Virus record (IMG/VR): IMGVR_UViG_3300043446_000360
Coordinates: 1-42,224 of that record
DNA: 42,224 bases
DNA from: a virus
Strand: one strand, 5' to 3'
Of this stretch, positions 13,993-32,937 are shown piece after piece. Position 1 is the first letter of the stretch, and every line of letters begins with the position of its first letter. The notes below the pieces were generated by a model that saw only the letters and a list, made by a program, of their open reading frames with translations, was not told the DNA's origin and did not search any database. A program made the position numbers and the translations under genes.

Positions 13993-14276
13993 AAACCTCT
14001 TGTAGTTTTCAACACCTTTTCTAACATCTCCTGACACTTCTCTTTACGATTAGGCCAGTGAATATAAGCCTTGTCTGCCGTTTTGATTAGATTGTTCAGC
14101 AGCGGAACAATGATAGACTCGAGAACTTTGATTTTCTGAGCCAGCTCTTCTTCCTTTTCTGTAAGAGCTTGATGCTTTTCGTCAAGAGCTTGAAGCACAT
14201 CATGCTTAATTTCATGCTCATCGACTCCAGTAAAACCAAAGTCAAAACCAAGATATTCTTGTGGAACTTTTACCAC
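13989..14276 (-). CDS. Small helical phage protein (GTG start)
   Basis: A 95-residue protein, mostly helical and highly charged. Residues about 20-55 (HEIKHDVLQALDEKHQALTE onward) have heptad character, and YIHWPNRKEKCQEM near the end is shared with hypothetical proteins of other T4-like phages (from memory). The start codon is GTG at 14274-14276, supported by GAGGAG seven bases upstream inside the end of the PP-loop gene (overlap 7 bases). The function is unknown. Confidence 0.7.
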   Translation of the reverse strand: MVKVPQEYLGFDFGFTGVDEHEIKHDVLQALDEKHQALTEKEEELAQKIKVLESIIVPLLNNLIKTADKAYIHWPNRKEKCQEMLEKVLKTTRGL

Positions 14277-15043
14277 AGCTCTGCTCCTCTATTAGCCCAG
14301 TCACGACAAACGTCCATAACTCGTTTACGATTGTTGAAGTTCAATCTAGGATTAGGTAGAACTTCTTTTTCGAATAGCTTATCTATTCCTGATCCAAGCT
14401 GCAAGTTGATATGTTTCTTTACACCACCAACTTGCTTGAACTCAGGGAACGCTTCGACTACATGATGTTTCTGATAAGGCTGATTCAACTCATACCAGTC
14501 TTTGCTCATAAAGAACTTAGCCACGTCTGGATCAAGATACGGAGCAATGAATCGTTTCTTGTTCAGCTCTTCTGCGATTCGTTTATGCCACAGATATCCA
14601 GCGCGACTGTTAGCACCAAAGTAGTCTCTACGAAACTCGTCGAACTTATCTTTCGTATGCTTGTAGTGAATGTTTGCTTTCTTAGATACACCATAGTATC
14701 CATCAGCAGCCCATCCACTTAGAACTTCATGCTCTTTGATCTGAGGATACACATACAGAAACGGAAAGCAGCACTCGAAGTGCGTTTTCTTTTCGCAGTA
14801 TACCTCTTTAGCCAAACGAATGAAGTCTTGCTCTATGTTATCAGTTGGAACTACAACAACGCAATAGTCCCATCCCATATTCTTTGCGATATCGACTGCT
14901 TTTTGCGAATCATATGACGGCTGACCATCGAGATGAAACGTGTATGCAGTTATCTTTTTTCCTAGTCTGTGTGCAGCAAAAGCAACAGATACACTATCTA
15001 CACCGCCAGAGAGTAGGACAGCTACGTTCTTTTCACCAGACAT
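14270..15043 (-). CDS. PP-loop ATPase, asparagine-synthetase-like
   Basis: A 257-residue enzyme with the PP-loop SGGVDS at 12-17, which binds ATP pyrophosphate and adenylates a substrate. LSGWAADGYYG and IAPYLDPDV match the synthetase half of asparagine synthetase B, but the glutaminase half is absent, so ammonia donor and acceptor are unknown. A conserved run of Cys residues (VYCEK, FECCFP) lies mid-protein. The preferred start is ATG 15041-15043 (MSGEKNVAV), 33 bases after the polymerase stop with GAGAAG upstream. A longer frame to 15121 would overlap gp43. Such stand-alone phage enzymes may modify a small molecule, a protein or a base; this cannot be told here. Confidence 0.75.
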   Translation of the reverse strand: MSGEKNVAVLLSGGVDSVSVAFAAHRLGKKITAYTFHLDGQPSYDSQKAVDIAKNMGWDYCVVVVPTDNIEQDFIRLAKEVYCEKKTHFECCFPFLYVYPQIKEHEVLSGWAADGYYGVSKKANIHYKHTKDKFDEFRRDYFGANSRAGYLWHKRIAEELNKKRFIAPYLDPDVAKFFMSKDWYELNQPYQKHHVVEAFPEFKQVGGVKKHINLQLGSGIDKLFEKEVLPNPRLNFNNRKRVMDVCRDWANRGAELW

Positions 15044-15075
15044 AGCGTCCACTTCTCTAACCAAGATACTATCAA

Positions 15076-17589
15076 TCACGAAAAGAAATCCTCTAGTGTG
15101 CTTTGCTTTTCTGAGTGCCAATTGATAGTCGATAGAATAGCATTCAGCGGAGCCATGAACGCTTTCTCGAACTGAGTATCATAGTCAATATAGCTATCCA
15201 GCTTGAACTCAGCTGGCAAAGCGGAAAAGGCACAAATCACATTATCATGAAGCGGATTAGGCATCTTCAGATACGAGAATCGAATCTTTTCGCCATCTTT
15301 GATAAGCTCATACTTCTTCTGGAGCTTGAGTTGCTTAATCTTGTTATTGTATGACAGAGCACCACGAACATGAATAGGAACGCTCTTCTTTTCGCGTTCA
15401 TATTTAGTTAGATCTTGAACAGAACGCGGAAACGCAACTTCTTCGAACGATAGCTTATAGAATTTGTTTTTGAACTCGGCGATGAACTTATGCAGCTCTT
15501 CTTCAGGCTGAGTCATGATGATGTTAAGTGCTTGCTTAATAGCTTCGCGACACACAGCAGGAGTTGATGACTTGACTGCTTCGATCCCCATGATTTTCAG
15601 TTTAGGCTTGGTATAACGAACGCCTTCAGAATCGTGGACGTTGAGGATGTATCGTTTCTTCGCAGTCCAGATACCACGATCAGCGATAACCTCACGCTTC
15701 ATATTCATTTTTTGCTGGAACGCTTCCATCCGATCAGCAAGATCCTGATAGATACGATCAATAACTGGTTCAATCTTCTGGCTAGCCATCTTGTCCAAAA
15801 AGTTAACGATCTTTTGCTTCTCATCCTCAGAATAACTATGCTGATCTCCTCGTATCTTAAACACTTGGCGTACCAGCTGATCAAAACAGATATAAAGTGA
15901 ATCCGTATCCGAAGCAATAACATAATCGTAGTCCTTGGTTTTCAATACTCCATTCAAATACTTATTCATCTCGTTTTCAGCCCAGCGAATAGATAGCTGA
16001 CCACCGAGAGTAATGGCAGTTGCTTGATTGATATCAAAGAAACGGAAGTGTGGATTACCAATCGCACCGTAAGCTGAGTTCAGCTGAACTTTCTTAGCAA
16101 GCTGCATATTCTTGTATCGAGAGATATCTTTAGACGCTTGCTTAGATTTGGTCTTTTCATACTCCTTCTGCGCAGCGATCATCTTTTCTTTGTAAACGAC
16201 GCGATCGTTATACATGCGTTCCATGATCTCAGGCAAGAATCCTTGACGAGCTTTGCTGAAGAAGCAGCCGTTTGCAGCAAGACCATATCCATCTGGAACT
16301 TCTGGAGTATATCCTTCGAGTAACTCATCAACAGTTACTTCAATCTTTTGTGCGTCGCCACGAGTATCGCGAAGCAGCGTTTCGGGGCTGATATTATACT
16401 GCATGATAAGATGTGGATACAGAGAGTTCAAATCGAACGACATAACCCAGTCGTATCCACCAGGAACAGGTTCTTTGACGTGAGCGCCAACATATGCTTC
16501 ATGCTTAGATCCGCCGCCCTCGATAGGAACTGCGATACGTTGTTTGTAGAGATGGTTGTGAATGATAACGTCCCACATACGAACTTGTGTGAACACGTCC
16601 ATGAGCGTGACTTTCGCATCATACGCGAGCGCGAGAGCCATGTCAATCAACTTCATCTTGTCGTCTAGTTTCTCAACGAGCTCAACGTCTCGAATGTTAT
16701 ACTCGATGAACTTCTGGAAATCGTTCATGTAGAACTCATGCAGCGTTTCATACTCGTCGTATGATAACTTACGTTCGCCAAGTTCTACGAATCCGATGTG
16801 ATCTAGCTTGTAGCTTTCTTGCTGAGTGTATGTGAACTTCTGATACATCTCAAGATAGTCGAGAGTAGCAACACCGCCAATATTATAGACTGTTTCTTCT
16901 TTGAACTTCGTGCGCACGCGACGTTCTTTGATAATTTTCCAAGGTGAAAAACGCTTGGCCTCACTATCGCCAAGCACAGCGCTCATGCGACGAACAAGAT
17001 ACGGAATATCGAAGAACGTGACGTTCCAGCCAGTCACGATGTCTGGATACTCGTTGCTCCACTCGCTCAAGAACTTGATGAACAGTTCCTTCTCGTTGTT
17101 GCATTGATAGTATCGCACGTCATCGCGCTTTACTTCGAAGTCGCCGTATCCCCAAACGTGGAAGATGCCGTCTTTCTTCAGAGTGATAGCGGTTACAGTA
17201 TCAGATGCGCGTTCTACAGTAGGAAAACCAAACTCTGAGCTAACCTCGATGTCGATATATGCAACGTTGATTAGCTCGCGATCGTATGCGATTTCGTTGG
17301 GATACTCTTCGTTGAGATACGCATAGAGAAAACGTGGCATACCATATAGCTTGAAGTTGCTCACATCATCATAGCGAGCTATGAAGTCTTTCGCGTCTCG
17401 CATAGATTCGAATGGCATAGGATCAAGCGAAAGCCCACGGATGTCTTTCCATGCAGCGTCTTCGCGCTTGGATGGGAGAAACAACGTGGGCTGATAGGGA
17501 ATCTTTTCTTGGAAAGGGCGTCCGCGGTCGTAACCGCGAACGAGAATGTTGTTACCGTATTCGAGAGCGTTGGTGTAGAACTTTGACAT
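15076..17589 (-). CDS. 43: DNA polymerase gp43 (family B)
   Basis: An 837-residue replicative polymerase with 3'-5' exonuclease. Exo I is DIE at 113-115, Exo II is NVTFFDIPYLVRR, polymerase motif A is DLNSLYPHLI, motif B is KKVQLNSAYGAIGN and motif C is ASDTDSLYI, all intact. It is somewhat shorter than T4 gp43 (898), like cyanophage polymerases. The last residues, QSTLEDFF plus Ser, form a clamp-binding peptide that fits the PIP-box pattern Qxx(L)xxFF (829-836) for tethering to gp45. It has its own early promoter at 17595-17623. Confidence 0.97.
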   Translation of the reverse strand: MSKFYTNALEYGNNILVRGYDRGRPFQEKIPYQPTLFLPSKREDAAWKDIRGLSLDPMPFESMRDAKDFIARYDDVSNFKLYGMPRFLYAYLNEEYPNEIAYDRELINVAYIDIEVSSEFGFPTVERASDTVTAITLKKDGIFHVWGYGDFEVKRDDVRYYQCNNEKELFIKFLSEWSNEYPDIVTGWNVTFFDIPYLVRRMSAVLGDSEAKRFSPWKIIKERRVRTKFKEETVYNIGGVATLDYLEMYQKFTYTQQESYKLDHIGFVELGERKLSYDEYETLHEFYMNDFQKFIEYNIRDVELVEKLDDKMKLIDMALALAYDAKVTLMDVFTQVRMWDVIIHNHLYKQRIAVPIEGGGSKHEAYVGAHVKEPVPGGYDWVMSFDLNSLYPHLIMQYNISPETLLRDTRGDAQKIEVTVDELLEGYTPEVPDGYGLAANGCFFSKARQGFLPEIMERMYNDRVVYKEKMIAAQKEYEKTKSKQASKDISRYKNMQLAKKVQLNSAYGAIGNPHFRFFDINQATAITLGGQLSIRWAENEMNKYLNGVLKTKDYDYVIASDTDSLYICFDQLVRQVFKIRGDQHSYSEDEKQKIVNFLDKMASQKIEPVIDRIYQDLADRMEAFQQKMNMKREVIADRGIWTAKKRYILNVHDSEGVRYTKPKLKIMGIEAVKSSTPAVCREAIKQALNIIMTQPEEELHKFIAEFKNKFYKLSFEEVAFPRSVQDLTKYEREKKSVPIHVRGALSYNNKIKQLKLQKKYELIKDGEKIRFSYLKMPNPLHDNVICAFSALPAEFKLDSYIDYDTQFEKAFMAPLNAILSTINWHSEKQSTLEDFFS

Positions 17590-21281: not shown

Positions 21282-21977
21282 TCATTCTCCATCATATAGG
21301 GTGTTCGTCGTCAAGCGATTATACTTGAAGCGAACTGTCACAGGCACTTTCTTGTTCCCAGCGAAGATCGAAGGTTTTGACCAGTCAATCTTAACATTAG
21401 GAAAGTTATCAGCCCAATCACGAAAGATACCCTCATAGCGTTCTGGACTGATATCTACATAATCTTGTGAATCGTTGGATGTCGCGATACCTTTCAGCTT
21501 GATGTAGGCTTTACCTGTTCGAGCAAGCTGGAGATAGAAGTCAACATCCTCAAACAAATCAATCCGATCATATCGGGCTGACTTTACTCTACTCGTATAG
21601 TGTAGCACGAACTTGCTCAAACCGCTAGTCCATTCTTCACGTCCATTGGAAAATGCTCTTGGATGATCGCTGATCATAGCCAAGTTCTGATATCGCGTAA
21701 ACATTTTGCCTGCTTTGCGATAAAAGGCTTGGAAGTCCTCGAATGTGGCAGATTGGCTAGTGCATACGCCATTTTCATAGCGGGTGAACTTGCAGTCGTC
21801 ATCGACCATAACAAACATTGGCTCGTTGTTCTTGATAGCCATATCAACGATCAGCTGTCGTTTCTGAGAGATTGGGAGCTGATCATCGATTACCCTGACG
21901 CTATCCCTGAGCTGCTCAGGAAGAGAGTCGTATGTTGTTTTTACGACGCCACGTGTCGGGATGTAGATAGGTATCAT
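21282..21977 (-). CDS. Glycosyltransferase-like protein (TET/JBP-associated type)
   Basis: A 231-residue protein with a GT-A-like start: PIYIPTRG at 3-10, SQKRQLIVDMA at 37-47 and MVDDDCKF with the metal-binding DDD at 59-61. ERYEGIF and DLFEDVDFYLQL later resemble the acceptor side. This pattern matches glycosyltransferase-like proteins that phages encode next to base-modifying enzymes, where they add sugars to hydroxymethylated bases. No TET/JBP or hydroxymethylase gene is visible in this window, so the acceptor is unknown. It overlaps the gp44 stop by 4 bases and is translated with it. Confidence 0.6.
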   Translation of the reverse strand: MIPIYIPTRGVVKTTYDSLPEQLRDSVRVIDDQLPISQKRQLIVDMAIKNNEPMFVMVDDDCKFTRYENGVCTSQSATFEDFQAFYRKAGKMFTRYQNLAMISDHPRAFSNGREEWTSGLSKFVLHYTSRVKSARYDRIDLFEDVDFYLQLARTGKAYIKLKGIATSNDSQDYVDISPERYEGIFRDWADNFPNVKIDWSKPSIFAGNKKVPVTVRFKYNRLTTNTLYDGE

Positions 21978-30587: not shown

Positions 30588-31271
30588 TTACGGAGCTTTT
30601 AACGCAATGAAGCCGGTGAAGGCGTGATTTTGCCAGAAGGTATCTACCGCTTCGAAGCCAGCGTGTTTGCACATATTGACGAGTTCCTGACGGGTGCTGG
30701 GCTTTGTCATGTGACGGAGTTGCTTTTCTTTGTCCATAATGTCGTCGGTCGTAAACGTGCGACGCTTGAAGTCGTAATAGGTAAACGTGCGAATCTCGTG
30801 GATGCGAACATTATCAGGCATTGTCTTTTCTGCAAACACGAAAGCTCCGCCTGGATTCAATCCATCATAGACAGAGTTGATAACTCGTTTGCGTTGCTGA
30901 TGCGTCATGAACTGTAGCGTGAAGATACTGGTAATGTAAGAACAGTTCACGAAGTGATACTGATCAACGTCACCACGGAAGTATGTCAGATTGTGGTAAT
31001 TCCTTTCGTCTTCTTCATACGTCTTATAGAAGTCTGGTTCAATTTCTACGCCGTCATAAAATGCTTCAGGCGCGAACGTATTCTGAGCGATCATGCTCTT
31101 GAGCATCTTACCCGTCGAGCAACCAATATCGACTACGGTAGTTCCGTTCTCAACAAAGTATTGTGAGATATCGACGATGTCTTGCCACAGATCGTTGTAT
31201 CCACGGATCGATGTGTCGATATGAGTATCAAAGCCTTCTTCGCGTGTGGCAAATGTGAACTTACCTGTCAT
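30588..31271 (-). CDS. CmoA-like SAM-dependent enzyme
   Basis: A 227-residue class I SAM-binding enzyme close to CmoA, the carboxy-SAM synthase of bacteria. Shared features are SIRGY at 21-25 (E. coli SVPGY), DIGCSTG at 48-54, GDV at 100-102, FTLQFM, YDGLNPGGAF at 135-144, AEK, YDFKR and the C-terminal KHAGF. In E. coli CmoA, Arg199 binds the carboxylate of carboxy-SAM. The aligned stretch here is Lys181-Glu182-Lys183, so the Arg itself is not conserved and the product may be carboxy-SAM or a methylated target. It overlaps the C5-cytosine methyltransferase stop by 4 bases and ends the operon. CmoB, the tRNA partner, is not in the window. Confidence 0.75.
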   Translation of the reverse strand: MTGKFTFATREEGFDTHIDTSIRGYNDLWQDIVDISQYFVENGTTVVDIGCSTGKMLKSMIAQNTFAPEAFYDGVEIEPDFYKTYEEDERNYHNLTYFRGDVDQYHFVNCSYITSIFTLQFMTHQQRKRVINSVYDGLNPGGAFVFAEKTMPDNVRIHEIRTFTYYDFKRRTFTTDDIMDKEKQLRHMTKPSTRQELVNMCKHAGFEAVDTFWQNHAFTGFIALKAP

Positions 31272-32407
31272 TGCAATTCCTTGTATGGCTTGAGGATATT
31301 TTCGTAGATAGAAGTGGCAAGAGCTGACATCATCTTAGGAGCTACCATTCGTCCGATACGTTCTGCCTGCTGATCGAATGTGCCAGTCAGCTCGTAGTCA
31401 TCAGGTAGACTCATGATACGCTTCATTTCTTTAATTGTCAACTTCCTATTTGCAGCATAGTGCATAACACCAGAGGCACCACGTTGCTGTCCCATCTGCG
31501 TGAGTGTAGGCGATGGTTTATTAGGAGCTGGACGTTTCATGTTGAAACAAGATGTCTTGCCGTTCAGTGGTCCTGGTTTCAATACCTTAACAGGATTGAA
31601 TGGCATAGTTTCAACGAACTTCTTTTGGAAACTTGTTTCACAGAAGTCCAGGAGCATTTGAACTTCTGCAGGATCATTGTCGATCCCTTCGATTGCGCTG
31701 GCGATTGATACACCATCGCTTGTTGTAGGCATTGGATAAACTCGACGAGCGAGTTCATACTCCTCCAGCCCCAGAGCCGTGAACACATCATTCCTAATCC
31801 CCACAAAAAATGTTCTCATGCGGCTCTGGGGCACCCCAAACTTCGACGCATCCATCACTTGATATACCATCTTATATCCTGGCGCGATGCGTTCGAAGCC
31901 TGTTACGAAATCTCTGAGTTTCTCAATCGCGGCGCGAGACGTGATTCCCTCGACGTTTTCCGCTACGATTACCTTAGGTTGGATATCTTCTGCAATTCGT
32001 ATATATTCAAGGAACAGATCTTCAATGTTCTTTACAACTTTACCATCAGAATACTTTTTCTCGCGATTCCATCCCTTCTTACCTTTACCAGAAGAAGAAA
32101 ACGCAGAACACGGCGGCGATCCGTCGAGGATATCAAGCTCACCTTTCTTCAGATTACCAATCTTAAGCAGATCGTCACCAGTGATGTTCTTGATATCTCC
32201 CAGGATTACTTTCGTGTCGGGAAAGTTGCACGAGTAGGTAGCGACAGCTTCCTCAACGAACTCGTTGATCGCAACAACTTTCCCGCCTGCTAGCCTATAT
32301 CCTGTTGAAGATCCTCCTCCTCCCGCGAACGTCGAGACCACCGTAAACAATTCGCGAGCAGATGACTTTCGCACATCTTCAATAGTATATGGCTGATAGT
32401 TACTCAT
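31268..32407 (-). CDS. C5-cytosine DNA methyltransferase with altered motif X
   Basis: A 379-residue cytosine-C5 DNA methyltransferase. Motif I is FAGGGGSSTG at 27-36, motif IV GSPPCS with catalytic Cys100, motif VI ENV at 150-152, motif VIII QSRMR at 194-198, and motif IX spans RKLTIKEM to SLPDDY. The target-recognition stretch between VIII and IX is short, so a short site is expected. In motif X the usual QIGNxVxP reads RIGRMVAP, so the conserved Asn is Arg353. From memory, changing that Asn to Lys or Arg lets M.MpeI use carboxy-SAM. It overlaps the deformylase stop and the CmoA-like start by 4 bases each. It could also simply protect phage DNA by methylation. Confidence 0.93.
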   Translation of the reverse strand: MSNYQPYTIEDVRKSSARELFTVVSTFAGGGGSSTGYRLAGGKVVAINEFVEEAVATYSCNFPDTKVILGDIKNITGDDLLKIGNLKKGELDILDGSPPCSAFSSSGKGKKGWNREKKYSDGKVVKNIEDLFLEYIRIAEDIQPKVIVAENVEGITSRAAIEKLRDFVTGFERIAPGYKMVYQVMDASKFGVPQSRMRTFFVGIRNDVFTALGLEEYELARRVYPMPTTSDGVSIASAIEGIDNDPAEVQMLLDFCETSFQKKFVETMPFNPVKVLKPGPLNGKTSCFNMKRPAPNKPSPTLTQMGQQRGASGVMHYAANRKLTIKEMKRIMSLPDDYELTGTFDQQAERIGRMVAPKMMSALATSIYENILKPYKELQ

Positions 32408-32937
32408 GCTGATCTTAACTTCCGATCTGCTCTTGCTTTGAAATTACGAGCTTGGTCTAAGTGGTAACGATTAGCACGGGTTTGATAAGTAATTCCGTTG
32501 AGGTGATCGTATTCGTGCTGGAACACTCGTGCTGTGTAGCCTTCGTAGCGCACTGTATCAGCCTCCCCGTTCCATCCGCGATATCGAACACGAATACCTC
32601 GCGGGCGTTTGATTTTGATAAACAGTCCTGGATAACTGACACATCCTTCTTCATAGACTACTGTTTCCTCATCATAATGTAAAATGAAAGGATTGAATAC
32701 ACCAATGATTTCATTCGGCGTCGACGGATTACCAATAACGAAAGCGCGAGTCATGATACCAAGTTGAGGAGCAGCAAGACCTACTCCTTTTTCTTCAATC
32801 ATCTTATCGCGCAGAAGTTCATACAATTCTTTGGCATGAATGACTGTGCCGTCTTCCATCGTATAGCCAGTCTCGAATACGAACTCTGGGCACGTTTCTT
32901 TTAGTCTTGGATCGCTACCTTTTAACAATTGAATCAT
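32404..32937 (-). CDS. def: Peptide deformylase
   Basis: A 177-residue peptide deformylase that removes the formyl group from new N-termini. All three motifs are present: GVGLAAPQ at 51-58, EGCVS with the metal-binding Cys99, and HEYDH at 141-145. Phage deformylases are usually short, lacking the C-terminal helix of bacterial ones; this one keeps a basic C-terminal helix (ARNFKARADRKLRSA). It overlaps gp46 and the C5 methyltransferase by 4 bases each. Its place in a recombination/modification operon is unusual. Confidence 0.95.
   Translation of the reverse strand: MIQLLKGSDPRLKETCPEFVFETGYTMEDGTVIHAKELYELLRDKMIEEKGVGLAAPQLGIMTRAFVIGNPSTPNEIIGVFNPFILHYDEETVVYEEGCVSYPGLFIKIKRPRGIRVRYRGWNGEADTVRYEGYTARVFQHEYDHLNGITYQTRANRYHLDQARNFKARADRKLRSA

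Follow-up and report, generated by a model that had tools for sequence, protein, structure and literature searches.

The stretch of DNA analysed here (the window) is the 42,224-nucleotide IMG/VR virus record IMGVR_UViG_3300043446_000360, positions 1 to 42,224; this linear record is probably a fragment, and is part of a T4-like phage. Its DNA polymerase belongs to the T4-like marine type and is approximately 52% identical to Synechococcus phage homologues. The window carries homologues of all three genes of the CmoA–CmoX–CmoY system of Synechococcus phage S-B43 (SpCmoA, SpCmoX and SpCmoY; Table 1), which was characterised by enzymology, crystal structure determination and analysis of phage DNA (Nat Commun, 7 December 2025, PMC12783734). 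In S-B43, CmoA produces carboxy-SAM (Cx-SAM), CmoX moves its carboxymethyl group onto C5 of cytosine in GC sites, with Arg350 holding the carboxylate of the cofactor, and CmoY attaches glycine to the carboxymethyl group (PMC12783734). Wild-type SpCmoX uses Cx-SAM only and does not accept SAM, SpCmoA synthesises Cx-SAM faster than E. coli CmoA does, and virion DNA contains the glycine amide, with free 5-carboxymethylcytosine not detected (PMC12783734).

Table 1. Features of the CmoA–CmoX–CmoY genes and their surroundings in the window
Feature	Position	Strand	Basis
CmoY, ATP-dependent ligase, asparagine-synthetase family, 269 aa, GTG start	14270..15079	-	PF00733 (E 5.2e-15); 51% identity to SpCmoY over 267 aa
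T4-type DNA polymerase (context)	15076..17589	-	directly upstream of CmoY, overlapping it
TAGT-family (TET-associated) glycosyltransferase, beside clamp-loader gene	21282-21977	-	PF20691 (E 2.7e-8), PHROG 842
CmoA, predicted carboxy-SAM synthase, 227 aa	30588..31271	-	TIGR00740 (E 5.9e-27); 4GEK (E 1.3e-21); 50% identity to SpCmoA over full length
ATGA overlap of CmoX stop and CmoA start, 4 bases	31268..31271	-	ORF coordinates, sequence
CmoX, predicted DNA cytosine C5-carboxymethyltransferase, 379 aa	31268..32407	-	PF00145 (E 4.7e-52); 8YF3 (E 2.5e-104); 49% identity to SpCmoX, full-length alignment
Arg353 codon CGA in motif X IGRMV	31349..31351	-	aligns with SpCmoX R350
Peptide deformylase (context; outside the pathway)	32404..32937	-	PF01327 (E 1.1e-33)

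The closest solved structure to the window CmoX is 8YF3, the CmoX of S-B43, a natural DNA C5-carboxymethyltransferase (PMC12783734), which aligns with residues 6-373. The catalytic SPPC motif occupies residues 97-100, with Cys100 as the nucleophile, and SpCmoX residues F25, E47, F48, D69, C98 and R350 correspond to F27, E49, F50, D71, C100 and R353 of the window enzyme; these six cofactor-binding or catalytic positions are invariant in an alignment of four CmoX enzymes. A sequence-only reading of this DNA had drawn attention to an Arg in motif X (codon 353, within QQAERIGRMVAPKMM) and to a 4-base overlap between the methyltransferase gene and a CmoA-like gene. Both are present as described; the same Arg occurs in motif X of 8YF3 (RVGRMVPPLMM), and the ATGA on the coding strand at the CmoX–CmoA junction suggests translational coupling. 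The peptide deformylase gene lies directly upstream of CmoX and also overlaps it by 4 bases. In sequence alignment the target region resembles that of SpCmoX, whilst dinucleotide counts in the window yielded no useful signal on GC specificity. Replacement of the motif X Asn by a basic residue is known from the engineered variant M.MpeI N374K, in which that residue reads the carboxylate of Cx-SAM (PMC12783734); M.MpeI N374K is CG-preferring, whereas the window CmoX, with Arg, is natural, belongs to another subfamily and is presumably GC-specific.

The best family models for the CmoA-like reading frame are TIGR00740 and PRK15451. It falls below the cut-offs of both (94.9 of 193.3 bits for the TIGR00740 equivalog), as is expected for a diverged phage form; having missed the cut-off for cellular equivalogs, the window CmoA is classed with the phage type represented by SpCmoA. 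E. coli CmoA, which works with CmoB in the tRNA cmo5U pathway, belongs to the same family (28% identity). The sequence-only reading had doubted the function of the window protein, as it has a Lys-Glu-Lys stretch where E. coli CmoA has Arg199. The stretch does align (QKRSMLE in E. coli CmoA, DKEKQLR in the window and DKEKELR in SpCmoA; the E. coli sequence was entered by hand and agrees with the 4GEK chain), the exact partner of Arg199 being the Glu of Lys-Glu-Lys, Glu182. The doubt itself falls, since the biochemically active SpCmoA shares Lys-Glu-Lys, and the residue at this position thus does not define the phage type of CmoA. Of 205 homologues, 200 retain the Glu, and 201 have an Arg four residues further on; it is possible that Arg and Glu have exchanged places one helical turn apart in the phage enzymes.

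A search of the window for asparagine-synthetase domains revealed a third member of the set, CmoY, which is absent from the sequence-only reading. Its start is best read as the GTG at 15079, overlapping the stop of the DNA polymerase gene by 4 bases, approximately 15 kb from the CmoA–CmoX pair. In S-B43, CmoY lies between CmoA and CmoX, and the order in the window, CmoX followed by CmoA, also differs. The two systems nonetheless have in common 49-51% identity over the full length of all three proteins, the motif X Arg, the active-site and cofactor residues, and the Lys-Glu-Lys of CmoA. The displaced arrangement recurs in G002, a record of 157,580 bases in which CmoX, CmoA and CmoY are 91%, 77% and 88% identical to those of the window and CmoY lies directly after the DNA polymerase, approximately 16 kb from CmoA–CmoX. 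CmoY homologues were also found in G004 and G006. A scan of genome contigs returned only two Endozoicomonas loci.

Motif X Arg is a constant feature of the close relatives of the window CmoX. It was found at all 212 related loci with a readable motif X in a first survey and, the two genes being usually adjacent, a chance occurrence is excluded. In a search starting from CmoX, Arg was present in each of the 80 best viral contigs, and CmoA in the fetched DNA of 65; a search starting from CmoA found an Arg-type CmoX at all 78 new loci. The closest non-Arg relatives found, approximately 43% identical to the window CmoX, form the enzyme family of Methylophilales phage Melnitz (L226 and L232-L311), which provides a natural contrast: here motif X has Leu (IGLMV; 80/80), a TET/JBP oxygenase is a neighbour at 64 of 80 loci, and CmoA was seen near none of the 80. 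This family is predicted to follow a route from 5-methylcytosine to 5-hydroxymethylcytosine. In the group around the LoVEphage enzyme, motif X has Met (20 of 20 with a readable motif); CmoA was seen at none of its 22 loci, and the Met form does not go with TET either. The sequence-only reading had named a lack of correlation between motif X Arg and CmoA-like neighbours as grounds for refuting its proposal; the counts (65/80, against 0/80 for Leu and 0/22 for Met) instead favour that proposal. The corresponding Fisher value, 8e-35, cannot be read as a true probability, the sequences being related, and the counts are not independent events, since the Arg-type loci are mostly one family; on the tree the Arg label needs only two changes.

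Two Staphylococcus phages are an exception: the C5 methyltransferase that neighbours their CmoA comes from another lineage and lacks the motif X Arg, so that Arg is a strong but not a necessary mark of association with CmoA. In these phages (SPbeta-like, L398:5983-7682; vB-SscS-F1, L399:5950-8468) the methyltransferase is of the HhaI/MpeI type with motif X VVGGVINQLHL, and in vB-SscS-F1 a CmoY-like gene lies between CmoA and the methyltransferase. These enzymes are possibly an independent carboxymethyltransferase lineage; such loci would escape the published survey, which demanded SPPC and Arg350 (PMC12783734). In Alcaligenes phage Afa-NA1 (L400) a CmoA-like gene lies approximately 2.5 kb from a DNA adenine methylase, and no annotated C5 methyltransferase was present within the 12.7 kb fetched; this CmoA-like protein might conceivably act in carboxymethylation of adenine.

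Several further loci vary the arrangement. In three of them (L201, L202 and L213) a CmoY homologue is accompanied by two distant proteins, one CmoA-like (approximately 83-86 bits) and the other a C5 methyltransferase, the motif X of which in L201 is VGRAMS, with Arg; from their sequences these are judged to be a diverged form of the CmoA–CmoX–CmoY system. In Erwinia phage Alexandra and Yersinia phage fHe-Yen9-02 (L231 and L402) the CmoX-like gene continues, immediately behind SPPC, into a large in-frame insertion; this resembles an intein that divides the catalytic motif. The contig IMGVR_UViG_3300017755_000017 has two CmoX genes, one beside CmoA (L129) and one alone (L065), which perhaps reflects two site specificities.

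Taken together, the window very probably encodes a complete CmoA–CmoX–CmoY pathway of DNA hypermodification. Points that weigh against this reading are the distance of CmoY from the CmoA–CmoX pair, the CmoA score beneath the equivalog cut-off, and the mostly single-family origin of the Arg-type loci. The evidence from the window comprises its gene content, full-length homology of approximately 50%, conserved catalytic and cofactor residues, and the co-occurrence described above; each reaction has been demonstrated for homologues elsewhere. By analogy with these, CmoA would convert SAM and prephenate to carboxy-SAM. CmoX would then flip the cytosine out and attack C6 through Cys100; the carboxymethyl group would pass to C5, and Arg353 would bind the carboxylate of carboxy-SAM. 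CmoY would activate the carboxylate with ATP and join glycine to it, giving 5-glycylcarboxymethylcytosine. The modified sites are probably GC, and the modification should block host restriction enzymes. We infer that the window proteins carry out the same reactions as their homologues, with the same reserve for the site preference, the amine and the protective role; identities of approximately 50% leave more than one recognised site or amine possible. The proposal of the sequence-only reading, that an Arg-type C5 methyltransferase and a CmoA-like enzyme together make 5-carboxymethylcytosine, is therefore upheld by the biochemically demonstrated S-B43 pair, approximately 50% identical. Its suggestion of 5-carboxymethylcytosine as the end product has to be revised: given the CmoY homologue, the pathway probably runs on to the glycine amide.

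The alternative with most in its favour, albeit an unlikely one, is that carboxymethylcytosine is made and CmoY uses another amine, either a different amino acid or ammonia, giving a different amide. The published ligase family is diverse, with several clusters to which no amine has been assigned (PMC12783734), but the window CmoY resembles SpCmoY along nearly its full length and a domain search found no glutaminase domain in it. It is decidedly improbable that free 5-carboxymethylcytosine is the end product, with CmoY inactive or serving another role. The complete phages S-CRM01 (L001) and RN05-S (L003) have CmoA and CmoX and gave no match to CmoY or PF00733, so a phage can have the first two steps without the third, and free 5-carboxymethylcytosine or the action of another ligase is predicted there; the CmoY of the window, however, is intact, including its PP-loop (SGGVDS), and is conserved in relatives. 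Least credible of all, and rejected, is an ordinary 5-methylcytosine methyltransferase with a drifted motif X beside an unrelated methyltransferase, the possibility held open by the sequence-only reading: CmoA-like proteins do sit in a large methyltransferase superfamily, and CmoA was not seen in the fetched DNA of 15 of the 80 Arg-type loci, but several of these end close to the gene and at least one (L065) shares its contig with a second CmoX that is beside CmoA, the homologous SpCmoX with the same Arg refuses SAM (PMC12783734), and Arg is universal in the family and goes with CmoA, as Leu does with TET and Met with neither.

The TAGT-family glycosyltransferase of the window raises the question of a further decoration. 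No TET oxygenase was seen within the 42 kb window. A role for the TAGT enzyme in sugaring the CmoX/CmoY product, which would give a glycosylated carboxymethylcytosine amide not yet known, seems to us improbable: one record (G029) has CmoX, CmoA and TAGT together, as do G037 and G038, but most of the CmoX phages checked have no TAGT. TAGT as a fixed part of the CmoX system is not supported, a PF20691 search having found it in none of 33 records (CmoX phages and one Leu-type control), negatives that are incomplete since the search missed a weaker TAGT match in G002 that was found by hmmscan.

G002 has a TET/JBP oxygenase clustered with a nucleotidyltransferase and this TAGT-like gene (L380:6546-10696), and its only C5 methyltransferase is its CmoX. 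Action of this TET-like oxygenase on 5-carboxymethylcytosine is nonetheless a weakened proposal. None of four complete phages whose oxygenases are its closest relatives contains a C5 methyltransferase (PF00145), and Caulobacter phage Cr30 is amongst the phages that carry a relative of the oxygenase but no such methyltransferase; a separate pathway, perhaps thymine-based, is therefore likelier, and the same observation weighs against the action of TAGT on the CmoX/CmoY product. The TAGT enzyme of the window may instead decorate DNA in a second pathway.

Since DNA carboxymethylation was published for S-B43 in December 2025, the idea itself is not new; what the window adds is a complete three-gene set whose enzymes have diverged by approximately 50% from those studied. 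The relocation of CmoY to a position beside the DNA polymerase means that a search for the ligase needs the whole genome, and not just the neighbourhood of CmoX. Motif X Arg, Leu or Met, read together with a CmoA neighbour, a TET neighbour or neither, offers a sequence rule that separates phage DNA carboxymethylation from methylation. The system would place a carboxyl handle on DNA that is then converted to an amide, and so belongs to a line of phage DNA modification chemistry first recognised in December 2025.
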